Of a DNA stretch of 18,209 nucleotides, positions 5,371 through 17,131 are shown piece by piece. The stretch is from contig JAHZJY010000119.1 of NCBI GenBank assembly GCA_022600695.1, positions 1-18,209 of the forward strand, given 5' to 3'. Each line of letters starts with the position of its first letter. The first letter of the stretch is position 1. The notes beneath the pieces are model-generated. The model was given only the letters and a program-made list of their open reading frames with translations. It was not told where the DNA came from and ran no database searches. Origin of the DNA: Actinomycetes bacterium (lineage in GTDB: Bacteria > Actinomycetota > Actinomycetes > Mycobacteriales > Mycobacteriaceae). The translations under genes and the position numbers were made by a program.

Positions 5371-6177
5371 ATGGGTGGCGACGTCTTCAACCCGGACGTG
5401 GCCGGGGATCTGGATCTGGCACTGGCGCTCGCCTCGCGTGCCGACACGATTTCGTTGCCGCGGTTCGGCGCTCTCGATCTACGGGTTGACCAAAAACCCG
5501 ATCTCACCCCGGTCACCGACGCCGATATCGCCGTCGAGCGCGAACTGCGGATCGTCCTTGCCCGGGAGCGGCCCGACGACCGGATCCTCGGCGAGGAGCG
5601 CGGCGGCACCCCGGTACTCGAAGGTCGACAGTGGGTGATCGACCCGATCGACGGCACCAAGAACTTCGTCCGCGGAGTTCCGTTATGGGCCACCCTGATA
5701 GCGCTGCTCGAGGATGGGATCCCCACCGTCGGCGTGGTCAGTGCACCGGCGCTGCGCCGACGCTGGTGGGCCGGTCGCGGACTCGGTGCACATTTGTCCT
5801 TCGCCGGGGCGCCGCCGCGCCGGCTGTCCGTCTCGGCCGTCGGCGATCTGGGATCGGCCAGCCTGTCGTTCTCCAGCCTCTCCGGCTGGTCCGATCTGGG
5901 CCTGCGGGAACACTTCCTCGACCTGACCGACGCGGTGTGGCGAGTGCGGGCATTCGGCGACTTCTTCTCGTACTGCCTACTCGCCGAGGGCGCGGTGGAC
6001 ATCGCCACCGAGCCGGAGGTCAAGCTGTGGGACCTGGCCCCGCTGGACCTGCTGGTCCGCGAGGCCGGCGGCAACTTCACCAGCCTCTCCGGCGAGACCG
6101 GACCGCACGGCGGCAGCGCCGTGGCGACCAACGGCCCACTGCACGCCGCGGTGCTGCGGGTCCTGTCCGGCGTGTGA
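5371..6177 (+). CDS. hisN: Histidinol-phosphate phosphatase, inositol-monophosphatase family (HisN, Rv3137-like)
   Basis: Mg-dependent phosphatase of the IMPase fold. The M. tuberculosis counterpart (Rv3137) supplies the histidinol-phosphate phosphatase step of histidine synthesis. The 268-aa product has the IMPase metal site: GEE at residues 74-76, the motif [12 protein letters not shown] at 88-99 with metal-binding Asp 91 and Asp 94, and the second motif [15 protein letters not shown] at 220-234 with Asp 221. The family and the HisN subgroup are clear from [25 protein letters not shown] and [10 protein letters not shown]. The ATG at 5371 gives about eight residues more than the 260-aa Rv3137, and GTG at 5398 is an alternative start. 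There is no Shine-Dalgarno, and the 23 bp shared with the divergent membrane gene suggests leaderless initiation. Other IMPase substrates cannot be excluded by sequence alone. Confidence 0.92.
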
Positions 6178-6197
6178 GATCGGTTACACAGACCTCG

Positions 6198-6221
6198 CTA
6201 TCTTACTCAGGAGTAAGATAG
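6198..6221. promoter_or_regulatory. Perfect palindrome, candidate repressor operator of fadE24-fadE23
   Basis: The arms CTATCTTACTC (6198-6208) and GAGTAAGATAG (6211-6221) are perfectly complementary, separated by the two bases AG. A 24-base dyad of this size and its AT-rich content stand out in GC-rich DNA. It lies 39 bases upstream of the fadE24 ATG. The right arm contains TAAGAT (6214-6219), a TANNNT -10 candidate, so a protein bound here would block the promoter. The form is typical of TetR- or FadR-type regulators of fatty-acid genes. Which regulator binds is not known from the sequence. Confidence 0.75.
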
Positions 6222-6260
6222 GTTCCGGATACCTACCCCGCACCCACCCTGAGGCGCCAC

Positions 6261-7652
6261 ATGACCAACACCCTCCCCTCCCGCAGCGGTCGCGCCCGGG
6301 ACAGCGCCGTTGGCCAGCGTCGGCGCAAACGCACCGCGACCGATATCGGACTGGCCCTGCTGACCCCCCTGGTCGGGCAGGAGTTCCTGGATCGGCACGG
6401 CCTACGCACCCCGCTCAACCGGGGTTTGCAGTACGGCGTCAAACAGGTTTTTTCGGCCGCCGGTGCGACCACCCGACAGTTCGGCAGGGTGTCGGGCCGG
6501 ACCAAACCGGCCGTCCGCCTGACGTCGCCACCGCACGCCGACTACTTCGACCTCACTCCCGACGATGACCAGAAGATGATCGTTGAGACGGTCAAGGAGT
6601 TCGCCGAGGAGATCCTGCGCCCGGCGGCGAGTGCGGCCGACGACGCCGCCGCCCACCCGGCCGACCTGGTCACCAAGGCCGCCGAACTCGGCATCACCGC
6701 AATCAAGGTGCCGGAGGAATTCGATGGCATAGCCGAAAACCGGACCGCCGTCACCAACGCCCTGGTGGCCGAGGCGCTGGCCTACGGAGACATCGGGCTG
6801 GCCCTGCCGATCCTCGCTCCGGGTGGGGTGGCCTCCGCGCTGACCCACTGGGGTGGCGCCGATCAGCAGGCCACTTACCTCCCCGCGTTCGCCGGGGACA
6901 CCGTGCCGCAGGCCTGCCTGACGATCGCCGAGCCACACCCGCTGTTCGACCCAACCGCCCTCAAGACCACCGCGGTGCGCACCCCCGGTGGCTACCGACT
7001 CGACGGGATCAAATCCCTGGTACCGGCGGCTGCCGACGCCGAACTGTTTGTCATCGCGGCGCACCTCAACGGTCGGCCCGCGCTGTTCATCGTCGAGTCC
7101 GACACGGCTGGACTGACTGTGCGCCCCGACCGCAGCATGGGCCTGCGGGCCGCCGCGCTCGGCCAGATCGAACTCCACAACGTCTCGGTCCCGCTCGCCG
7201 CCCGCCTCGGCGAGGCCGACGTCACCGACGCCGATGACGCCCGGGCCTATTCCGAGGCCATCGCGCTGTCCCGGCTCGGCTGGGCGGCGCTGGCAGTCGG
7301 CACATCGCATGCGGTTCTCGACTACGTCCTCCCCTACGTCAAGGAGCGCGAAGCCTTCGGCGAGCCCGTCGCACGGCGACAGTCGGTGGCTTTCATGTGC
7401 GCCGATATCGCCATCGAACTCGACGGACTGCGGCTGATCACGTGGCGCGGCGCCGCGCGCGCCGACCGGGGTCTGCCGTTCGCCCGGGAAGCCGCCCTGG
7501 CCAAGAAGTTCGGCACCGACAAAGCGATGCGGATCGGCCTCGACGGTGTGCAACTGCTCGGCGGGCACGGCTACACCAAGGAGCACCCGGTGGAGCGTTG
7601 GTACCGAGATCTACGGGCCATCGGCGTCGCCGAGGGTGTCGTCGTCCTCTGA
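6261..7652 (+). CDS. fadE24: Acyl-CoA dehydrogenase FadE24
   Basis: Flavin-dependent acyl-CoA dehydrogenase (first step of beta-oxidation), orthologous by sequence and position to M. tuberculosis FadE24 (Rv3139, about 468 aa; here 463). The first 95 or so residues are a basic, family-specific extension (RRRKRTATDIGLALLTPLVGQ). The ACAD fold begins near YFDLTPDDDQKMIVETVKEF. The second ACAD signature is present (EREAFGEPVARRQSVAF). The segment WYRDLRAIGVAEGVVVL at the extreme C-terminus aligns with the catalytic-glutamate segment of canonical ACADs, putting the base at Glu 458, five residues from the end. GAGG at 6251-6254 is a good Shine-Dalgarno. It is followed 29 bp later by fadE23, and the two probably form a heteromeric enzyme. 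Expression is probably controlled by the upstream palindrome. Confidence 0.94.
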   Translation: MTNTLPSRSGRARDSAVGQRRRKRTATDIGLALLTPLVGQEFLDRHGLRTPLNRGLQYGVKQVFSAAGATTRQFGRVSGRTKPAVRLTSPPHADYFDLTPDDDQKMIVETVKEFAEEILRPAASAADDAAAHPADLVTKAAELGITAIKVPEEFDGIAENRTAVTNALVAEALAYGDIGLALPILAPGGVASALTHWGGADQQATYLPAFAGDTVPQACLTIAEPHPLFDPTALKTTAVRTPGGYRLDGIKSLVPAAADAELFVIAAHLNGRPALFIVESDTAGLTVRPDRSMGLRAAALGQIELHNVSVPLAARLGEADVTDADDARAYSEAIALSRLGWAALAVGTSHAVLDYVLPYVKEREAFGEPVARRQSVAFMCADIAIELDGLRLITWRGAARADRGLPFAREAALAKKFGTDKAMRIGLDGVQLLGGHGYTKEHPVERWYRDLRAIGVAEGVVVL

Positions 7653-7681
7653 GCCCTTCCGAAACGACTGAGAGAATCACC

Positions 7682-8896
7682 ATGGCGATAAACCTCGAAA
7701 TGCCACGCAAACTGGAAGCGGTCATCGATATGGCCCACACCGGCGCCGCGGAGGTGCTGCGGCCGATCTCCCGGAAATATGATCTCGATGAGCACGCCTA
7801 CCCGGTGGAACTCGACACCGTGGCCAGTCTGTTCGAGGGCATCTCGGCGGCCAACACCATCTCGTTCGCCGGAGCCGACGCGTTCCGGGACAACAGTGAC
7901 GGACCCAAGGGAAATGTCAACGGCGGCAATATGTCCGCACTGCTGAACTCCCTGGAGATCGCCTGGGGTGATATCGCGTTACTGCTGTCGGTGCCGCGTC
8001 AGGGACTGGGCAACGCAGCCATCTCGGGGGTCGCCACAGACGAGCAACTGGCCCGGCTCGGCAAGGGCATCTGGGCCGCAATGGCCATCACCGAGCCGTC
8101 GTTCGGGTCGGACTCGGCCGCGGTGTCGACGACGGCGGTCCTCGACGGCGACGACTACATCATCAATGGAGAGAAGATCTACGTGACCGCCGGATCACGT
8201 GCCAGCCACATCGTGGTGTGGGCGACACTGGACAAGACCAAGGGCCGGGCTGCCATCAAGTCGTTCATCGTGCCGCGCGAGTATCCTGGCGTGACCGTCG
8301 AGCGACTGGAACACAAACTCGGCATCAAGGCCTCGGACACCGCCGCAATCCGGTTCGACAACGTCCGCATCCCGAGGGCGAACCTGCTCGGCAGCCCCGA
8401 CATTCAGGTGGACAAGGGATTCGCCGGGGTGATGGAGACCTTTGACAACACCCGGCCGATCGTGGCGGCCATGGCGGTCGGGGTGGCCCGCGCGGCATTG
8501 GAGGAACTGCGCACCATCCTCACCGACGCCGGCGTGGAGATTTCCTACGACAAGCCTGCTCACGCCCAGAGCGCGCCGGCCGCGGAATTCCTGCGGATGG
8601 AGGCCGACTGGGAGGCGGCCTACCTGCTGACGGTGCGCTCTGCCTGGCAGGCCGACAACGCCATCCCCAACTCCAAAGAGGCCTCGATGGGTAAGGCCAA
8701 GGCCGCCAGGGTGGCCAGCGACATAACCCTCAAGGCCGTCGAGATGGCAGGAACCACAGGGTATTCCGAGCAGACGCTGCTGGAGAAGTGGGCTCGCGAC
8801 TCCAAGATCCTGGATATCTTCGAGGGCACCCAGCAGATTCAGTTGCTGGTGGTCGCTCGTCGGCTGCTGGGCCTGAGCTCGGCCGAACTGAAATAG
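7682..8896 (+). CDS. fadE23: Acyl-CoA dehydrogenase FadE23
   Basis: Second acyl-CoA dehydrogenase of the pair, orthologous to Rv3140 (about 400 aa; here 404). Recognisable ACAD segments are WAAMAITEPSFGSDSAAV (middle-domain flavin contact), DDYIINGEKIYVTAGS and the C-terminal catalytic motif ILDIFEGTQQIQ with Glu 381. The usual R-x-x-FG-x-P...Q flavin-binding signature, seen in FadE24, is not recognisable: the corresponding region reads DAGVEISYDKPAHAQSAPAA. That fits a subunit specialised to work with FadE24. The frame is open well upstream, into fadE24, but the ATG at 7682 is right because it gives MAINLEMPRKLEAVID, is preceded by GAGAG, and follows fadE24 by 29 bp. Substrate is not predictable from the sequence. 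Confidence 0.94.
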   Translation: MAINLEMPRKLEAVIDMAHTGAAEVLRPISRKYDLDEHAYPVELDTVASLFEGISAANTISFAGADAFRDNSDGPKGNVNGGNMSALLNSLEIAWGDIALLLSVPRQGLGNAAISGVATDEQLARLGKGIWAAMAITEPSFGSDSAAVSTTAVLDGDDYIINGEKIYVTAGSRASHIVVWATLDKTKGRAAIKSFIVPREYPGVTVERLEHKLGIKASDTAAIRFDNVRIPRANLLGSPDIQVDKGFAGVMETFDNTRPIVAAMAVGVARAALEELRTILTDAGVEISYDKPAHAQSAPAAEFLRMEADWEAAYLLTVRSAWQADNAIPNSKEASMGKAKAARVASDITLKAVEMAGTTGYSEQTLLEKWARDSKILDIFEGTQQIQLLVVARRLLGLSSAELK

Positions 8897-10131: not shown

Positions 10132-11244
10132 ATGGAATCCTTCGTTCACCTGCGCAAAGGAACGACCCCCCGGCGCCTGCACGCCGATCTGAACGCGCTC
10201 AAGGACGACGAACTCGGCCGCGGCGGCTTTACCGGGCGCACCGCGAATTTCTTTCGGCGACACGACCCCACCGAGTTCCGGGCGGCAGGTCCATTGCGCC
10301 CCGTCGACGTCCTCGCCGACGCCCTGGAACCGGGTGATGCCGTCGATCCGGCCGGGTCCCCCCTGCTGCTCTTCTCCAACCCGGACTGCCGGATCTCGCT
10401 GAGCCGCCGCCATCAGGACATGCCCTTTCACATCCGTCACGTCGACGGGGACTTGCTGTGTTTCGTCCACCAGGGCGAGGGCCGAGTGGAGACCGAGTTC
10501 GGCCCCCTGGCCTACCGCACCGGCGACTGGATCTACCTGCCCAAGGGCTGCACCTGGCGGCAACTGCCGAGCCCGGGCGGGCCGAGCAGTTGGCTGATGA
10601 TCGAGGCGAGCGACGAGTTCCGCACTCCCCCGCCGGGGCCACTCGGGCGGCACTGGCCCTTCGACCCGGCCCAGGCCGTCATTCCCGAACCGGCGCCCAT
10701 CGAGGACGACGAACGCGATGAGTACGAGGTGCGTCTGGTGCACCGGCCCATCGACGGTGTCGGGACCACCTCGTTGTTCTACGAACACAACCCGATCGAC
10801 GTCGAAGGCTGGCGGGGGGATAACTTCGCCTTCACCTTCCATATCGACGACTACAACGTCGTCACCTCCGACAGCGTTCACCTGCCCGCCATGGCGCATC
10901 TGTTCATGCAGGCCACCGGGGTATACGTCTGTAACTTCCTGCCCAAACCCGCCGAGATGGTGCCGGGCACCGAACGCACGCCCTGGTATCACCGCAATGT
11001 CGACTTCGATGAGGTCGCCTTCTTCCACGGCGGTTCGCTCTATGGCATACCGATGCCACCGGGGTTGATCAGCCATGCCCCGCAGGGCGTGCACCACGGT
11101 GCCCCGGAGAAGGCCCGCGAGCGGGCCCGACGCAAGTTCGACGACTTCACCTCGGTGGACTGGAAGGTCATCGCGATCGACACCCGGCGCAGGTTGCGCC
11201 CGTCACCGGCCGTCCTCGCAGCTGACTTGGGTCAGCACGGATGA
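10132..11244 (+). CDS. Homogentisate 1,2-dioxygenase family protein, short form
   Basis: Cupin-fold, probably iron-dependent ring-cleaving dioxygenase related to homogentisate 1,2-dioxygenase (HGD), which opens the aromatic ring of homogentisate. The product is 370 aa, against roughly 440 for classical HGD. Visible family segments are RHQDMPFHIRHVDGDLLCFV and GDWIYLPKGCTWR (N-terminal cupin), NFLPKPAEMVPGT, WYHRN at 286-290 and SHAPQGVHHG at 314-323. His 287 and a histidine at 321-322 correspond to HGD iron ligands. The carboxylate ligand would be Glu 294, one residue further from His 287 than in human HGD. The ATG is five bases after GGAG. Its stop overlaps the hydrolase start (ATGA). No maleylacetoacetate isomerase or fumarylacetoacetase is nearby, so the natural substrate may not be homogentisate. 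Confidence 0.82.
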   Translation: MESFVHLRKGTTPRRLHADLNALKDDELGRGGFTGRTANFFRRHDPTEFRAAGPLRPVDVLADALEPGDAVDPAGSPLLLFSNPDCRISLSRRHQDMPFHIRHVDGDLLCFVHQGEGRVETEFGPLAYRTGDWIYLPKGCTWRQLPSPGGPSSWLMIEASDEFRTPPPGPLGRHWPFDPAQAVIPEPAPIEDDERDEYEVRLVHRPIDGVGTTSLFYEHNPIDVEGWRGDNFAFTFHIDDYNVVTSDSVHLPAMAHLFMQATGVYVCNFLPKPAEMVPGTERTPWYHRNVDFDEVAFFHGGSLYGIPMPPGLISHAPQGVHHGAPEKARERARRKFDDFTSVDWKVIAIDTRRRLRPSPAVLAADLGQHG

Positions 11245-12413
11245 CCTACCAGCGGATCCCCTATCTCGTCGCCTATCGGAACGATTCGGGGGTCCGCGAC
11301 GTCTACGGCGGACTGGCCGAAGTCGTGGCGCTGGAGTGCCACCTGCTCAAGCCCGCAGAAGCCAGTGACACCGTCCTGGTGTTCATGCACCCATCCGCCG
11401 CCGGTGGCGGATATCTCCCCATGGTCACCGCGCTGGCCCGGGCCGGCCATCACGTCATCCACGCCGGCAGCCGATTCCGTGGCAGCGACTCTGCACTGCT
11501 GATGGAGAAGGTGGTGCAGGACCTCGGCGAGGTGATCGCCGACGCCCGGAACCGACTCGGCTACCGGCGGGTGGTGCTGGCCGGCTGGAGTGGCGGAGGG
11601 TCGCTATCGCTGCTCTACCAACAGCAGGCCCAGCACCCGACCGTGACGGCCAGCCCCTCCGGGGACGGCCCCGACCTGACCACCCTGGACCTGACCCCCG
11701 CCGACGGCGTCCTGCTGCTGGCCGCGCATATCAGCCGGCACGGCACCCTGACCGAATGGCTGGATGCATCCGTCCTCGATGAGGCCGACCCGTCCCGACG
11801 TGACCCGGACCTCGATCTCTACAACCCCGACAACCCCAACCAGCCGCCGTACACCGCTGAGTTCCTGCAGAACTACCGGCAGGCCCAGATCGACCGCAAC
11901 CGCCGCATCACCGGTTGGGTCAAGGAGAAACTCGCCGAACTGGCCGCAGCGGGCCGTGCCGATGAGGAGTACTGCTTCGTCGTGCACGGCACCATGGCCG
12001 ACCCGCGCTGGCTGGATCCGGCGGTGGACCCCAACGAGCGCGTTCCGGGCACCTGCTACCTCGGCGATCCGCAAGTGGTCAACGTCAGCCCGATCGGACT
12101 TGCCCGGTTCTGTTCGTTGCGCAGCTGGTTGTCGCAATGGAGCTATGACGATGCCCGCGGCGACGGGGTGGCCTGCGGACGCGATATCGCCGTGCCCACC
12201 CTGGTGATCGGCAACCTGGCCGACGACGCCTGCACCCCCAGCCATACCCGGCGGCTGTTCGAGGCCATCGGGCACCCGGACAAGGAGATGCACGAGATCG
12301 CACACGCCAACCACTACTACTCCGGACCCGAACAGCGCGAGCCGCTGGCGCAGGCGGTCGGCATCATCACCGACTGGCTTGACCGGCATCACCTTTCGGG
12401 ATCTACCCGATGA
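11241..12413 (+). CDS. Alpha/beta-hydrolase fold enzyme
   Basis: Serine hydrolase of the alpha/beta fold, 390 aa, substrate unknown. Strand and oxyanion region: TVLVFMHPSAAGGGYLPMV (44-62). The nucleophile elbow is GWSGGGS at 115-121 with Ser 117. The catalytic acid is Asp 328 or 329 (IGNLADDACTP) and the base His 355 or His 358 (HEIAHANHYY). An unusually long insert of about 200 residues (130-320) separates the nucleophile from the acid and could form a lid. The start ATG overlaps the dioxygenase stop and the end overlaps the CoA-transferase start (both ATGA), so the three are translationally coupled. Given its neighbours it may hydrolyse a C-C bond, ester or lactone in the ring-opened product; that is inference from position only. 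A plain esterase or thioesterase role is also possible. Confidence 0.85.
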   Translation: MTYQRIPYLVAYRNDSGVRDVYGGLAEVVALECHLLKPAEASDTVLVFMHPSAAGGGYLPMVTALARAGHHVIHAGSRFRGSDSALLMEKVVQDLGEVIADARNRLGYRRVVLAGWSGGGSLSLLYQQQAQHPTVTASPSGDGPDLTTLDLTPADGVLLLAAHISRHGTLTEWLDASVLDEADPSRRDPDLDLYNPDNPNQPPYTAEFLQNYRQAQIDRNRRITGWVKEKLAELAAAGRADEEYCFVVHGTMADPRWLDPAVDPNERVPGTCYLGDPQVVNVSPIGLARFCSLRSWLSQWSYDDARGDGVACGRDIAVPTLVIGNLADDACTPSHTRRLFEAIGHPDKEMHEIAHANHYYSGPEQREPLAQAVGIITDWLDRHHLSGSTR

Positions 12414-13615
12414 CCCCGACCGGAGCCCTGGACGGTATCCGGGTCCTCGAGGTCGGCACGTTGATCTCCGGACCGTTCGCCGGCCGACTGCTCGGCGATA
12501 TGGGTGCCGAGGTCGTCAAGATCGAACCCCCAGGCGCCCCCGACCCGCTGCGCACCTGGGGGCAAGCCGAAGTCGACGGCCACCACTTCTTCTGGACCGT
12601 GCACGCCCGCAACAAGAAGGCCGTCACCCTCAACCTGCGCGAGCCGGCCGGCCGGGACCTGTTCCTCGACCTCGTCGAGCGCTCCGATATCGTCGTCGAG
12701 AATTTCCGTCCCGGAACGCTGGAACGCTGGGACTTAAGCTATAACGTTCTGCGGCAACGAAATCCAGGCATCATCCTGGTGCGGGTATCCGGATACGGCC
12801 AGACTGGGCCGGATGCGGGCAAAGCCGGCTACGCCTCTGTGGCCGAGGCGGTCAGCGGCCTGCGGCACATGAACGGCTTTCCGGCCGGCCCCCCGCCGCG
12901 GCTGGCACTGTCCCTCGGCGACACCCTGGCAGGTATGTTCGCCGCCCAGGGGGCGCTGGCCGCGTTGTACCGGCGCACCGTCACCGGGGAGGGCCAGGTG
13001 GTCGATACCGCGCTGACCGAGGCCTGTCTGGCCGTGCAAGAGTCCACCATCCCCGACTACGACGCCGGGGGCGTGATCCGGGGGCCGTCCGGAACCCGGC
13101 TCGAGGGCATTGCCCCGTCAAACATCTACTGCAGCGCCGACGGCAGCTGGGTGGTGATCGCGGCCAACCAGGACACCGTGTTCCGCCGGCTGTGCCAGGC
13201 GATGGGCCGGCCTGAACTCGCGGTCGACCCACGGTTCGCCGACCACGCGGCGCGCGGCCGCAACCAGGACGAGTTGGACACCCTGATCGCGGACTGGGCC
13301 GTACAGCGCCAACCACGCGACATCATCGAAACCCTCAGCGCCGCAGGGGTGATCGCCGGCCCGATCAACACGGTCGCCGAGGTGGTCACGGACCCGCAGT
13401 TCCGCGCCCGCGGCATGCTCGTCGAGCACTATGACGAAGGCGCCGGCCGACCCGTACTCGGCCCCGGAGTCGTGCCGGTGCTGACTGCCACCCCCGGTGG
13501 GGTGCGCAGCGCCGGTCCGGCCCGTTCGGGGCAGCACAACAACGAGATCTACGGCGAGCTACTGGGCCTGAGCGCCGAGGCGATCGCCGAACTGACCACT
13601 CAAGGAGTGCTGTGA
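12410..13615 (+). CDS. CaiB/BaiF family (class III) CoA-transferase
   Basis: Transfers CoA from an acyl-CoA donor onto a free carboxylic acid through an enzyme-anchored mixed anhydride on an aspartate. The 401-aa product shows the family N-terminus LDGIRVLEVGTLISGPFAG, GDMGAEVVKIEPP, the NKK segment (HARNKKAVTLNL), VVENFRPG, and the catalytic aspartate at residue 171 in SLGDTLAGMFAA. The later part includes AAGVIAGPINTVAEVVTDPQ, typical of the family. Full length. The start ATG overlaps the hydrolase TGA, and the stop overlaps the next gene's GTG. In this cluster it most likely activates the acid that the hydrolase releases, feeding CoA-dependent steps. The acid and the CoA donor are not predictable from the sequence. 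Confidence 0.92.
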   Translation: MTPTGALDGIRVLEVGTLISGPFAGRLLGDMGAEVVKIEPPGAPDPLRTWGQAEVDGHHFFWTVHARNKKAVTLNLREPAGRDLFLDLVERSDIVVENFRPGTLERWDLSYNVLRQRNPGIILVRVSGYGQTGPDAGKAGYASVAEAVSGLRHMNGFPAGPPPRLALSLGDTLAGMFAAQGALAALYRRTVTGEGQVVDTALTEACLAVQESTIPDYDAGGVIRGPSGTRLEGIAPSNIYCSADGSWVVIAANQDTVFRRLCQAMGRPELAVDPRFADHAARGRNQDELDTLIADWAVQRQPRDIIETLSAAGVIAGPINTVAEVVTDPQFRARGMLVEHYDEGAGRPVLGPGVVPVLTATPGGVRSAGPARSGQHNNEIYGELLGLSAEAIAELTTQGVL

Positions 13616-14508
13616 GCGCACATGTCACGATTCGCGAGGTCGCCCTGCGCGACGGCCTGCAGATCGAATCGCCGATCCCGCTGTCCGCCAAACTCGATCT
13701 GCTGGCGGCGATCGCGGCGACGGGCGTGCGGGAGGTGGAGGCCACCGCGTTCGTCTCGCCCTCGAAAGTGCCCGCACTTGCTGATGCACCTGAGCTTGCC
13801 GCCGCGTTGACCGACTACCCCGATATCGAGTTCTCGGCGCTGATCGCCAGCCCCAACGGGTTACGCCGCGCCATCGCCGCCGGATTCCGGTCCGTGGAGT
13901 ACGTGGTGTCGGCTGCCGACGGGCACAGTCAGGCCAATGTCGGCCGTACCAGTGCCGAGGCCAGCGCCCAGATCGCCGATATCGTCACGATCGCCCATGA
14001 CGCCGGCGTGACCGTCGAGGTGATCATCTCCACTGCCTGGGACTGCCCCTTCGACGGGCCCACCCCGCCGCGGCGCGTCCTCGATGTCATCGACGCCGCC
14101 TGCGAACACGACGCCGACCGGATCGCCATCGCCGACACCATCGGTACCGCCACGCCCGGCCGGGTCGGCACGCTGGTGGACCTGGTGGCATCGCATATCG
14201 GCGACCGGCCACTCGGCGCGCACTTCCACAACACCCGAGGCGCGGGCCTGGCCAGCGCATGGGCTGCGGTGAGCGCCGGGGTGACCAGGCTCGACTCGTC
14301 GGTCGGCGGGCTGGGCGGATGTCCTTTCGCCCCGGGGGCCAGCGGCAATATCGCCACCGAGGATCTGGCGTACCTGTTGCGGGACAGCGGTATCGGCACC
14401 GATATCGACCTCGCCGCGGCGATCGAGGCCGGCCGCGTCGCGCAGGCCGTCGTGGGCCATCCACTGCCCAGCGCCCTGCTGCGATCCGGTGACCGGAACC
14501 TGGGCTAG
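13612..14508 (+). CDS. Hydroxymethylglutaryl-CoA lyase family enzyme
   Basis: Metal-dependent DRE-TIM barrel lyase, 298 aa, cleaving a 3-hydroxyacyl-CoA (HMG-CoA in the reference enzyme) to acetyl-CoA and a keto compound by retro-Claisen chemistry. Key residues are conserved: Arg 13 and Asp 14 (REVALRDGLQ), metal ligands His 204 and His 206 (GAHFHNTRG), the active-site Cys 237 in GGLGGCPFAPGASGN and Asn 246. VSPSKVPALADAPE matches the family. The GTG start at 13612 overlaps the CoA-transferase stop (GTGA) and has AAGGAG at 13602-13607. The gene sits between a CoA-transferase and a 4-hydroxyacyl-CoA-type module rather than in a leucine-degradation operon (no MCC or HMG-CoA-forming genes here). 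It may therefore act on a different 3-hydroxyacyl-CoA with a branched beta carbon. Confidence 0.92.
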   Translation: MSAHVTIREVALRDGLQIESPIPLSAKLDLLAAIAATGVREVEATAFVSPSKVPALADAPELAAALTDYPDIEFSALIASPNGLRRAIAAGFRSVEYVVSAADGHSQANVGRTSAEASAQIADIVTIAHDAGVTVEVIISTAWDCPFDGPTPPRRVLDVIDAACEHDADRIAIADTIGTATPGRVGTLVDLVASHIGDRPLGAHFHNTRGAGLASAWAAVSAGVTRLDSSVGGLGGCPFAPGASGNIATEDLAYLLRDSGIGTDIDLAAAIEAGRVAQAVVGHPLPSALLRSGDRNLG

Positions 14509-14526
14509 GCCGCGGGCACCGATCCG

Positions 14527-14532
14527 AAGGAG
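14527..14532 (+). promoter_or_regulatory. Shine-Dalgarno that fixes the start of the acyl-CoA dehydrogenase gene
   Basis: AAGGAG is six bases before GTG at 14539. Another GTG four bases upstream (14535) is out of frame. This is the only junction in the catabolic cluster without overlapping codons (30 bp), and it has a strong ribosome binding site instead. Confidence 0.8.
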
Positions 14533-14538
14533 ACGTGA

Positions 14539-15783
14539 GTGGATTTCACCCTGCCCGAACACCTCCCGCCGCTGCTGGCCGAGATGGACGCGTTCATCGA
14601 CGAGCAGATCAAGCCGCTGGAGCGCGAGCACATGCAGTACTTCGACCGTCGCCGGGAGTTCGCCCGCACCGACCTGGACAACGGCGGGGTACCACGCCGC
14701 GAGTGGGAGGACCTGCTCGACGAGATGCGCCGCCGCGCGGACGACGCCGGTTGGCTGCGCTACGGACTCCCCTCGAAATTCGGCGGCCGCGACGGCACCA
14801 ACCTGGAGATGGCGGTGATCCGGGAGCACCTCGCGCACCGGGGTCTCGGGCTGCACAACGACCTGCAGGACGAATCCTCGATCGTCGGCAACTTCCCGCA
14901 GGTGATCATGATGGACCGGTTCGGCACCGAGCAGCAGAAGTCCGAGTGGATCGAGGCCATGTTCACCGGCGGCAGGTCGATGGCCTTCGGGTTGACCGAA
15001 CCGGACCACGGCAGCGACGCCACCTGGCTGGAGACCACCGCCCGCCGGGACGGGGAACACTGGGTGCTCAACGGCTCCAAACGCTGGAACACCGGTGTTC
15101 ACCGGGCCACCCACGATCTGGTGTTCGCCCGCACCTCCGGTAACCCGGGGCAGGCTCTCGGCATCACCGCTTTCCTGGTGCCCTGCGACGCGGAGGGTTT
15201 CCGGGTGCCCTTCTATTGGTGGACCTTCAACATGCCCAGCGACCACGGCGAGGTGGAGTTGCGGGATGTACGGATCCCCGCCGAGGCCGTGCTGGGTGAG
15301 GTGGACCACGGCCTGGAGGTCGCCCAGACCTTCCTTCACGAGAACAGGATCCGGCAGGCCGCCAGCAGTCTCGGCGCGGCTCAGTATTGCATCGACCGCA
15401 GCGTCGATTATGCCTCCGGGCGAATCACTTTCGGTAAACCCCTTGCCGTCAACCAGGCCGTCCAATGGCCATTGGTCGAATTACAGACCGAAGCTCAGAT
15501 GGTGCGACTGCTGGTGTTCTACGCGGCCTGGGAGTTGGATCGCAATCATCATCTGCAGGTCTCGGACAAGGTGTCGATGGCCAACTACCGCGCCAACCGT
15601 CTGGTGTGCGAGGCCGCCGACCGGGCCATGCAAATCCACGGCGGGATCGGCTACAGCAGGCATGAACCCTTCGAGCATATTTACCGACACCATCGCCGCT
15701 ATCGGATCACCGAGGGCGCCGAGGAGATCCAGATGCGCCGGATCGCCCAGCGGATGTTCAGCTTCGGCCGTCGGAAACCCTGA
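14539..15783 (+). CDS. Acyl-CoA dehydrogenase, LvaC/ACAD10-11-type context
   Basis: Flavoprotein of the acyl-CoA dehydrogenase superfamily, 414 aa. N-terminal helices are followed by the middle-domain flavin segment SMAFGLTEPDHGSDATWLET and by LNGSKRWNTGVHRATH. The FAD signature SGRITFGKPLAVNQAVQWPL is intact, as is MQIHGGIGYSRHEPFEHIYR. The catalytic glutamate is Glu 392 in YRITEGAEEIQMRRIA. The gene is followed with a one-base overlap (TGATG) by an APH-fold kinase, then by a DUF6285-like gene. In Pseudomonas the corresponding LvaC takes the 4-phosphoacyl-CoA made by LvaAB and converts it on the way to a 3-hydroxyacyl-CoA. I infer an equivalent role here. An ordinary alpha,beta-dehydrogenation is the alternative, and the intact catalytic Glu is compatible with either. 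Confidence 0.9.
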   Translation: MDFTLPEHLPPLLAEMDAFIDEQIKPLEREHMQYFDRRREFARTDLDNGGVPRREWEDLLDEMRRRADDAGWLRYGLPSKFGGRDGTNLEMAVIREHLAHRGLGLHNDLQDESSIVGNFPQVIMMDRFGTEQQKSEWIEAMFTGGRSMAFGLTEPDHGSDATWLETTARRDGEHWVLNGSKRWNTGVHRATHDLVFARTSGNPGQALGITAFLVPCDAEGFRVPFYWWTFNMPSDHGEVELRDVRIPAEAVLGEVDHGLEVAQTFLHENRIRQAASSLGAAQYCIDRSVDYASGRITFGKPLAVNQAVQWPLVELQTEAQMVRLLVFYAAWELDRNHHLQVSDKVSMANYRANRLVCEAADRAMQIHGGIGYSRHEPFEHIYRHHRRYRITEGAEEIQMRRIAQRMFSFGRRKP

Positions 15784-16778
15784 TGAGCAGCTCGGAAAAG
15801 CTGGCTGCCGATATCGGCGCGGTGCTCCGACCGATCCTGGGGGCTGACATAGCGGTGTCGAATCTGCGGCTGCTGACCGGGGGCGCCAGCCGGACCACCT
15901 ACGCATTCGACGCGGTGGACGGCCAGCGACGACGGGCCCTCATCCTGCGCACCGCGCCGGTCGATGACGGCGATCAGATGGCGAGCATGGAACTCGAAGC
16001 AGCAACCCAGGCGGCCGCCGCCGATTCCGGAGCCCCCGTTCCGCACATCCTGATGGCCTCCAATTCCGCTGCACCGCTGGGTAAACCATTCCTGATGTGC
16101 GATGAGATCGCCGGCGAGACGATCGTTCGCCGGATCCAGCGCCGTCTCGACGGCCCGGGGCGCGATCGGCTGCTGACCGAGTGCGCGCGGGCCCTGGCCG
16201 CCATCCACCGGGCCCGCGCGGATGCGCCCGGCCTCATCGAGCGGGATCAGCTCGCCGACTGGCGGGTCCGGATCGACGCCATGGCCGACGACACCGGGAC
16301 CGCCACGACGGCCACCTTCGAGTGGGCGTTCCGCTGGCTGCAGGCGCACCGGCCGACACCCGCACCCCCGCGACTCGTGCACGGCGACTTCCGGATGGGC
16401 AACCTGATTGTCGACGGTTCAACCCTGGCCGCGGTGCTGGACTGGGAGTTGGTGCATATCGGGGATTTCCATGAAGACCTGGCCTGGTTCTGTTTGCGGG
16501 CATGGCGATTCGGGGCCCCGGTGCAGCGGGCCGCCGGCGGACTGGGCAGCATCGGGGACTTCCTCTCGGCCTACCGGGCCGCCGGCGGCACCGCCGTCGA
16601 CCGGTCGTCCCTACGCTGGTGGCTGGTGCTGGGCACGCTGCGCTGGGGGATGATCTGCCGCCACCAGGCGGGACGGCATCTGTCCGGGCAGACCAGATCG
16701 GTGGAACTGGCCGCGATCGGGCGGCGGGTGTGCGAGACGGAGTGGGACGTGCTCGACCTGCTGGAGAGTGCCCGGTGA
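15783..16778 (+). CDS. APH-fold phosphotransferase, predicted 4-hydroxyacyl-CoA kinase (LvaA-like)
   Basis: Kinase of the aminoglycoside phosphotransferase (APH/choline kinase) fold, 331 aa. The nucleotide-binding loop is LTGGASRTTYAF (31-42). The lysine-equivalent region reads RALILRTAP. The catalytic loop is LVHGDFRMGNLIV (198-210) with Asp 202 and Asn 207, and the metal-binding aspartate is Asp 220 in AVLDWELVHIGDFHEDLAW. It starts on the A of the upstream TGA and overlaps the downstream GTG by four bases. Association with an acyl-CoA dehydrogenase and a DUF6285-like protein is characteristic of LvaA, which phosphorylates the 4-hydroxyl of acyl-CoA, and of the fused kinase domain of ACAD10/ACAD11. 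An antibiotic-resistance role is unlikely in this setting. Substrate chain length is not predictable. Confidence 0.9.
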   Translation: MSSSEKLAADIGAVLRPILGADIAVSNLRLLTGGASRTTYAFDAVDGQRRRALILRTAPVDDGDQMASMELEAATQAAAADSGAPVPHILMASNSAAPLGKPFLMCDEIAGETIVRRIQRRLDGPGRDRLLTECARALAAIHRARADAPGLIERDQLADWRVRIDAMADDTGTATTATFEWAFRWLQAHRPTPAPPRLVHGDFRMGNLIVDGSTLAAVLDWELVHIGDFHEDLAWFCLRAWRFGAPVQRAAGGLGSIGDFLSAYRAAGGTAVDRSSLRWWLVLGTLRWGMICRHQAGRHLSGQTRSVELAAIGRRVCETEWDVLDLLESAR

Positions 16779-17131
16779 ACGGACAACCGGTGAACACCGG
16801 GCGGCCCACCGCGTCCGAACTCGTCGCCGCCGTCGCGGAGTTCCTGGAAGGTGATGTCCGTGCTGCCACCGCCGGGGCGGTCAACTTCCATGCCCTGGTG
16901 GCGGCCAATGCCCTGCGGATCGTGGAACGGGAACTCCTCCACGAGTCGTCCCCGGGTCCGGGAAACGCCCTGGCCGAATTGGGCTATGCCGACGAGGACG
17001 AGCTGGCCGACGCGATCCGCGCCGGGGCGTTGGACGGCCGGGACACCGAGGTGCTGGCCTGTCTGCGCAGCCTTGTCGGCCACCGGTTGGCCATCGCCAG
17101 TCCCGGTTACGGGAACCCGCCGACGACCTGA
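16775..17131 (+). CDS. DUF6285-like small protein, predicted kinase partner (LvaB-like)
   Basis: 118-aa mostly helical protein without signal peptide or membrane segment. Diagnostic stretches are RPTASELVAAVAEFLEGDV (10-28), NFHALVAANALRIVEREL (37-54) and LACLRSLVGHRLAIASPGY near the end. I recognise this as the DUF6285 pattern that accompanies LvaA-type kinases; in the Pseudomonas levulinate pathway the small protein LvaB is needed together with LvaA for 4-hydroxyacyl-CoA phosphorylation. The start is GTG at 16775, overlapping the kinase stop (GTGA). The frame is open further upstream, but only inside the kinase gene. A second in-frame GTG (16790) would shorten it by five residues. Last gene of the cluster. 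Confidence 0.85.
   Translation: MNGQPVNTGRPTASELVAAVAEFLEGDVRAATAGAVNFHALVAANALRIVERELLHESSPGPGNALAELGYADEDELADAIRAGALDGRDTEVLACLRSLVGHRLAIASPGYGNPPTT

Follow-up and report, generated by a model that had tools for sequence, protein, structure and literature searches.

What does a mycobacterium do with a set of coupled genes that joins a ring-cleavage enzyme to a small-molecule kinase? The question is raised by contig JAHZJY010000119.1 (assembly GCA_022600695.1), an 18,209–base pair (bp) stretch from an Actinomycetes bacterium of the family Mycobacteriaceae. Below, "the window" means this whole stretch, which is an entire contig of a 2.8-Mb, 401-contig assembly that is ~86% complete. Between positions 10132 and 17131 lie seven genes for a dioxygenase-like protein of the homogentisate 1,2-dioxygenase (HGD) fold, an alpha/beta hydrolase, a CoA-transferase, a hydroxymethylglutaryl (HMG)–CoA lyase-family protein, a flavoprotein of the acyl-CoA dehydrogenase (ACAD) fold, an APH-family kinase, and a DUF6285 protein. 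An earlier, sequence-only reading had described them as a catabolic cluster with no obvious substrate. Our answer, to which we give an even chance of being right, is a catabolic operon in which ring opening and hydrolysis would be followed by a CoA-transferase/lyase module and a kinase/DUF6285/ACAD module.

Seven coupled genes are kept together in mycobacteria

All seven genes lie on the plus strand: dioxygenase [10132 to 11244; 370 amino acids (aa)], hydrolase (11241 to 12413; 390 aa), CoA-transferase (12410 to 13615; 401 aa), lyase (13612 to 14508; 298 aa, GTG start), ACAD (14539 to 15783; 414 aa), kinase (15783 to 16778; 331 aa), and DUF6285 protein (16775 to 17131; 118 aa). The first three junctions are 4-bp overlaps (ATGA, ATGA, and GTGA), and the fourth is a 30-bp gap (14509 to 14538) within which the Shine-Dalgarno–like sequence GAAGGAGA precedes the GTG start of the ACAD gene. 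The ACAD and kinase genes overlap by 1 bp (TGATG) and the kinase and DUF6285 genes by 4 bp (GTGA). The open reading frames, positions, overlaps, and gap given by the sequence-only reading are exact, and each of its seven family names was backed by Pfam searches.

Co-conservation, the check which that reading had proposed for its single co-directional unit, was assessed by tblastn at HGD loci from a GTDB scan. The best 80 of 347 loci were kept and, being ranked by HGD, are nearly all mycobacterial; 69 of them have 9.2 kb or more of sequence 3′ of the HGD start and were counted, and 11 cut by contig ends were excluded. In each of the 69 counted loci, the seven genes were found on one strand and in unchanged order, with a few matches partial over a gene. 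Loss of the arrangement, the outcome named as contrary to a single unit, was thus not seen within mycobacteria. The 16 mycobacterial loci fetched first were likewise collinear, one lyase match being partial. As a control, the five genes that flank the cluster in the window were sought in the same 69 loci and were found in 47 (second upstream ACAD), 44 (first ACAD), 40 (inositol-phosphatase-like), 22 (esterase), and 1 (choloylglycine-hydrolase-like). This control is uneven: some loci have little upstream sequence, and 1.2 kb is left downstream in just 58 of the 69.

The relatives add an eighth gene to the set described by the sequence-only reading: a TetR regulator gene stands between the lyase and ACAD genes in 68 of the 69 loci. 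Its slot corresponds to the 30-bp gap of the window. The gene is cleanly missing from the window and from locus L096, leaving the operon there without an internal regulator, and the best TetR match in the window's own incomplete genome has only 37% identity over 84 residues.

Of 37 genomes from the same genus, 34 carry an HGD-like gene (in one, it is split between two contigs), and matches of comparable strength were seen in two further genomes, 61 having been examined in total. The closest record among the best 80 loci is L046, from the metagenome assembly Actinobacteria bacterium casp-actino6, whose dioxygenase is 90% identical. The environmental species Mycolicibacterium rhodesiae and M. 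chubuense are among the carriers of the cluster. When the seven genes were compared with those of three relatives, differences amounted to 5.6 to 26.1% at first, 4.1 to 18.7% at second, and 27.0 to 45.8% at third codon positions, a pattern that indicates purifying selection on all seven. The signal was weakest in the kinase and DUF6285 genes.

The dioxygenase and its partner hydrolase

The dioxygenase matches PF20510 (E = 1.1e-06, above the cut-off). Its homologues are labeled homogentisate 1,2-dioxygenase by several sources or carry generic names. Against TIGR01015, the hmgA equivalog model, it scored 41.3 bits (cut-off, 510.75), in agreement with the earlier reading, which saw no match of the enzyme set to the tyrosine/homogentisate pathway. 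A candidate 2-His-1-carboxylate iron site is conserved with Pseudomonas putida HGD: H287, D293 or E294, and H321 or H322 align to H331, E337, and H367, which we take to be the iron ligands of that enzyme, the last two positions having a one-residue ambiguity. H250 was considered as the catalytic base (HGD H288); it was matched in the HMMER alignment and one residue off in MAFFT, and we make no claim for it. A structure model of the dioxygenase was poor (mean pLDDT 47.0) and was not used.

Failure at the HmgA cut-off is not decisive by itself, because a homologue linked to 4-hydroxyphenylpyruvate dioxygenase (HPPD) fails as well. In locus L151 (7959 to 10211, minus strand), a short, distant HGD homologue (36 to 38% identity) lies directly beside an HPPD gene whose product scored 433 bits against a 277-bit cut-off. 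The homologue reached 76.1 of the 510.75 bits and is probably a true homogentisate dioxygenase missed by the NCBIfam HmgA model. The HGD clade of the operon is separate from this HPPD-linked clade, with modest support (78/86). Overall, HGD-type chemistry is likely for the window dioxygenase, and so is a substrate other than homogentisate.

Among the Pfam families tested on the hydrolase, PF12146 alone was above its cut-off (E = 1.9e-08). The protein has a GWSGGG nucleophile elbow at residue 115, and S117 is invariant in the alignment. Its structure model (pLDDT 64.7) gave generic alpha/beta hydrolase matches alone and no hint of the substrate. A hydrolase gene was found 3′ of the HGD gene, on the same strand and within 5 kb, in all 147 loci in which HGD identity is 54% or more and 1 kb or more of space is left, several genomes being represented more than once in this set. 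Where the HGD is more distant, a hydrolase follows in just one locus of 14 (L154, 37%).

Two further HGD loci were encountered in this survey. One mycobacterium carries a second HGD-like gene (L028, 6983 to 8095), 45 to 46% identical and without a hydrolase, whose neighbors resemble by sequence genes for P450, short-chain dehydrogenase/reductase (SDR), acyl-CoA ligase, and CoA-transferase. A contig titled as a Bifidobacterium breve metagenome-assembled genome (L060) carries a mycobacterial HGD (79% identity) and hydrolase (85%); this is probably a binning or labeling error.

A CoA-transferase beside an HMG-CoA lyase–family protein

The transferase belongs to the class III (CaiB-type) family, matching PF02515 (CoA_transf_3) over the whole profile (1 to 366 of 366; E = 4.2e-121). 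Its solved relatives include a CAIB/BAIF protein, a formyl-CoA transferase, and then succinate–hydroxymethylglutarate CoA-transferase 9br7 (E = 6e-60), and its best relatives include succinate-glutarate and succinate-hydroxymethylglutarate transferases. It scored 248.1 bits against NF052585, the succinate-HMG/glutarate CoA-transferase equivalog, whose cut-off is 750.

The lyase passed the hydroxymethylglutaryl-CoA lyase subfamily model NF004283 (275 bits; cut-off, 246), and the motifs RDGLQ, HFHN, and GGCPFAPG, common to solved lyases, are intact. No other strong match of this type was seen in the window's own incomplete genome. In Mycobacterium tuberculosis, HMG-CoA from leucine is handled by an unrelated enzyme, Rv2498c (PMC6689899), so that the lyase need not, although it may, act in leucine breakdown.

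The kinase, the DUF6285 protein, and an ACAD of a second kind

The kinase matches PF01636 (E = 6.9e-33), with HGDFRMGN at residue 200 and DWE at residue 220. The former motif provides the catalytic Asp followed by Asn five residues on, as in LvaA; the D220/N225 spacing described for the ACAD11 kinase is the same (PMC12440821). The match to the ACAD11 kinase domain as a whole is weak (E = 9.3e-05). The earlier proposal that this kinase may phosphorylate a hydroxyl group is supported. The DUF6285 protein (PF19802, E = 1.2e-21) belongs to a family that was detected in 19 of 149 genomes from the phylum. Of 21 DUF6285 loci inspected, with two places entered twice, 20 have an APH gene adjoining, and the protein is presumed to be a partner of the kinase.

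Chemistry that links a kinase, a phosphate, and an ACAD is established for LvaA/LvaC and ACAD10/11 (PMC11342911, PMC12440821, PMC6692424); in ACAD11 and LvaC a catalytic Asp is shared, as are R626, H634, and R637, which contact the 4-phosphate (PMC12440821). The window ACAD has three ACAD domains, ITEGAEEIQ at residue 390, and TFLHENRIRQAAS at residue 264. At five signature places, eight of eight LvaC-type ACADs compared, as well as ACAD11, have R, R, H, R, and D, whereas the residues are F, R, Q, S, and E in each of nine members examined from the subfamily to which the window ACAD belongs. Four of the five residues thus differ, and the two sets lie on opposite sides of a supported branch. Since the window ACAD lacks the signature and, among solved structures, is closest to ordinary dehydrogenases, phosphate elimination is no more than a candidate activity of this protein.

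The subfamily was also found beside APH and DUF6285 genes away from any HGD in L187 and L192 (62 to 63% identical), and near an APH-DUF6285 gene in L161. From this company of genes, we take the window ACAD for a second type of ACAD that partners a kinase and may remove phosphate.

The gene set varies outside Mycobacterium

The dioxygenase was detected at E = 1e-60 or better in 44 of 298 genomes drawn from the order and at 1e-50 in 39 of 396 drawn from the phylum, 28 of the latter being distant (36 to 41% identity). By genus, it was present in 23 of 59 genomes of g25, 9 of 78 of g23, and 1 of 2 of g2. The predicted co-occurrence of all seven families holds within mycobacteria but not beyond them: outside Mycobacterium, HGD and the hydrolase are the sole constant genes, and the remaining genes vary.

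In four loci of family f12 (Pseudonocardiaceae-like, the family name being a guess), the cluster consists of HGD, hydrolase, ACAD, and an APH-DUF6285 fusion, Pfam-confirmed in L026 and L027 and deduced from full-length matches in L038 and L039. Locus L040 carries HGD, hydrolase, thiolase, further genes (by sequence, more of the beta-oxidation type), ACAD, and APH; its CoA-transferase gene lies on the other strand. The ACADs of the four f12 loci and of L040 keep the full LvaC/ACAD11 signature, and the best solved relative of the L040 protein is mouse ACAD11 (E = 4e-75). An LvaC-type ACAD next to an APH-DUF6285 fusion in the Pseudonocardiaceae-like slot points to a step on a phosphorylated 4-hydroxyacyl-CoA. 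In genus g23, five loci have HGD at ~70% identity, and a CoA-transferase is added in four. Among 22 loci of g25, a flavoprotein of the HpaB/AbfD superfamily precedes HGD in seven, a CoA-transferase occurs in three, and a lyase occurs in two. The CoA-transferase and lyase are co-located in L130, L148, and L161. Such mobility of the genes suggests two separable modules, CoA-transferase with lyase and kinase with DUF6285 and ACAD.

The flavoprotein gene in L041 (10245 to 11621, minus strand), like those of the six other g25 loci, lies with ACAD genes directly before HGD. Among solved structures, the L041 protein is closest to vinylacetyl-CoA isomerase and 4-hydroxybutyryl-CoA dehydratase, followed by 4-hydroxyphenylacetate hydroxylases. 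The idea that it is a 4-hydroxybutyryl-CoA dehydratase replacing the kinase module was dropped: H292 and C299, presumably [4Fe-4S] ligands of the dehydratase, align with Glu and His in an alignment with 1u8v that covers two of the four ligands, the others lying outside it. The protein may instead be a flavin monooxygenase acting before ring cleavage.

Genes flanking the cluster in the window

Upstream, positions 5371 to 8896 hold an inositol-monophosphatase-like gene and the two ACAD genes counted in the control above, an arrangement reminiscent of the Rv3137-fadE24-fadE23 region of M. tuberculosis. The second of these ACAD genes, listed from 7397, probably starts later, since the listed reading frame overlaps the first ACAD gene in another frame. 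The putative esterase gene (PF00756; 8969 to 9955, minus strand), which we take to be antigen-85-like, is divergent from the cluster. The choloylglycine-hydrolase-like gene (PF02275; 17219 to 18187) just downstream is probably unrelated to the cluster, because it stands beside it in one of 69 loci.

Discussion

In the scheme that follows, the substrate class, each reaction, the branching, and the order of reactions are what we infer from gene content and order, families, motifs, and modules. The HGD-type dioxygenase would open an electron-rich ring, probably a hydroquinone-like one, and the partner hydrolase would split or hydrolyze the ring-opened product to acids. A 3-hydroxy-3-branched (HMG-like) acid would receive its CoA from the CoA-transferase, and the lyase would split the resulting thioester into acetyl-CoA plus a keto acid. 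The kinase, assisted by DUF6285, would phosphorylate a hydroxyacyl-CoA, most likely at a 4-hydroxy group, and the ACAD-fold enzyme would remove the phosphate so that beta-oxidation could proceed. In the preferred reading, which fits the module boundaries, one hydrolysis product would go to the CoA-transferase and lyase and another would lose a hydroxyl through the kinase and ACAD, although both modules may act on a single fragment. More tentatively, and with somewhat less confidence than in the catabolic operon just outlined, we propose that in most sampled mycobacteria an HGD-fold enzyme and a dedicated hydrolase feed a kinase-dependent 4-hydroxyacyl-CoA dehydration. This step would fall to a second ACAD subfamily, recruited separately, that handles a phospho-acyl-CoA with Glu as the base and binds the phosphate at a site other than that of LvaC/ACAD11. 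As pure speculation, the substrate could be of the prenylated hydroquinone type, its side chain being left as a branched 4-hydroxy acid, such as a tocopherol-quinone-like compound.

Known systems resemble the cluster in parts. The levulinate operon lvaABCDE of P. putida likewise encodes an APH-type kinase, a small partner-like protein (LvaB, of which DUF6285 is a candidate counterpart), and an ACAD-fold protein together, and the Pseudonocardiaceae-like relatives are closer still, with a full-signature ACAD and DUF6285 fused to the kinase. Unlike lvaABCDE, the window cluster has a ring-cleavage enzyme, hydrolase, CoA-transferase, and HMG-CoA lyase upstream, and the residues of its ACAD together with the lack of LvaD (SDR) and LvaE (CoA ligase) counterparts in the cluster led us to reject direct assignment to the lva operon. 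The sequence-only reading, which saw no levulinate match, was right in this respect; it missed the likeness of the last three genes to an Lva-type kinase/small partner/ACAD module, which the slot of the relatives brings out. Mammalian ACAD10 and ACAD11, which act in 4-hydroxy acid catabolism, also pair a kinase with an ACAD fold (PMC11342911, PMC12440821), but as one fused protein with a catalytic Asp, whereas the window has separate genes and a Glu-type ACAD subfamily. A class III transferase adjoining a motif-intact lyase-subfamily protein recalls succinate-HMG CoA-transferase and HMG-CoA lyase; here, however, the pair is part of a ring-cleavage operon.

Several findings weigh against the proposed pathway. 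Pfam searches revealed no lva-type SDR or CoA ligase among the seven genes, and formyl-CoA and other CaiB transferases match the window transferase as well as the HMG transferase does. In the window ACAD, four of the five signature residues are replaced, the catalytic Asp by Glu, and ordinary dehydrogenases are the best solved relatives. In g23, HGD, hydrolase, and CoA-transferase occur and the rest are not nearby; most of the 22 g25 loci hold just part of the set.

It is possible, although we think it unlikely, that the operon is as proposed and its ACAD is an ordinary FAD-dependent dehydrogenase passing electrons to electron-transfer flavoprotein, with the kinase and DUF6285 doing other work, such as phosphorylation of the ring-opened product at a different hydroxyl. 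The Glu base and the absence of the phosphate-binding Arg/His/Arg in all nine subfamily members compared would fit, as would solved relatives that are short-chain-type and other ordinary ACADs. Yet this subfamily accompanies APH and DUF6285 outside the HGD context, and an LvaC-type ACAD fills the same slot in related clusters. That the cluster serves biosynthesis, signaling, or detoxification rather than carbon supply seems improbable to us. The occurrence of the dioxygenase gene in nearly all sampled genomes of the genus is broad for a niche catabolic trait, and none of the seven genes encodes a transporter; but a dioxygenase, a CoA-transferase, and a C-C lyase jointly amount to degradative chemistry, to which the related L040 cluster adds its thiolase and beta-oxidation-type genes. 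We consider very improbable a variant of homogentisate/tyrosine catabolism with unusual downstream enzymes. The HGD fold, iron site, and names of the homologues agree with it, as does the homologue adjoining HPPD in L151. However, the score far below the HmgA cut-off (shared, it is true, by that homologue), the separate clade, and the lack of HPPD, isomerase, and fumarylacetoacetase among the window genes scanned led us, taken together, to set it aside.

No paper describing the cluster was found among the matches listed in the open-licence literature searched; PMC11347016, in the passages retrieved, gives only pathway annotation for a Mycolicibacterium strain. The dioxygenase is widespread among sampled genomes of its genus yet named generically or as "homogentisate dioxygenase." If the proposed catabolic operon is real, it would connect the opening of a ring with the phospho-hydroxyacyl-CoA route that was recently demonstrated for ACAD10/11 in mammals and for bacteria that degrade levulinate. 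The clear modules would allow each step to be tested one enzyme at a time, and the second ACAD subfamily would offer a chance to learn how, and by which residues, phosphate leaves.

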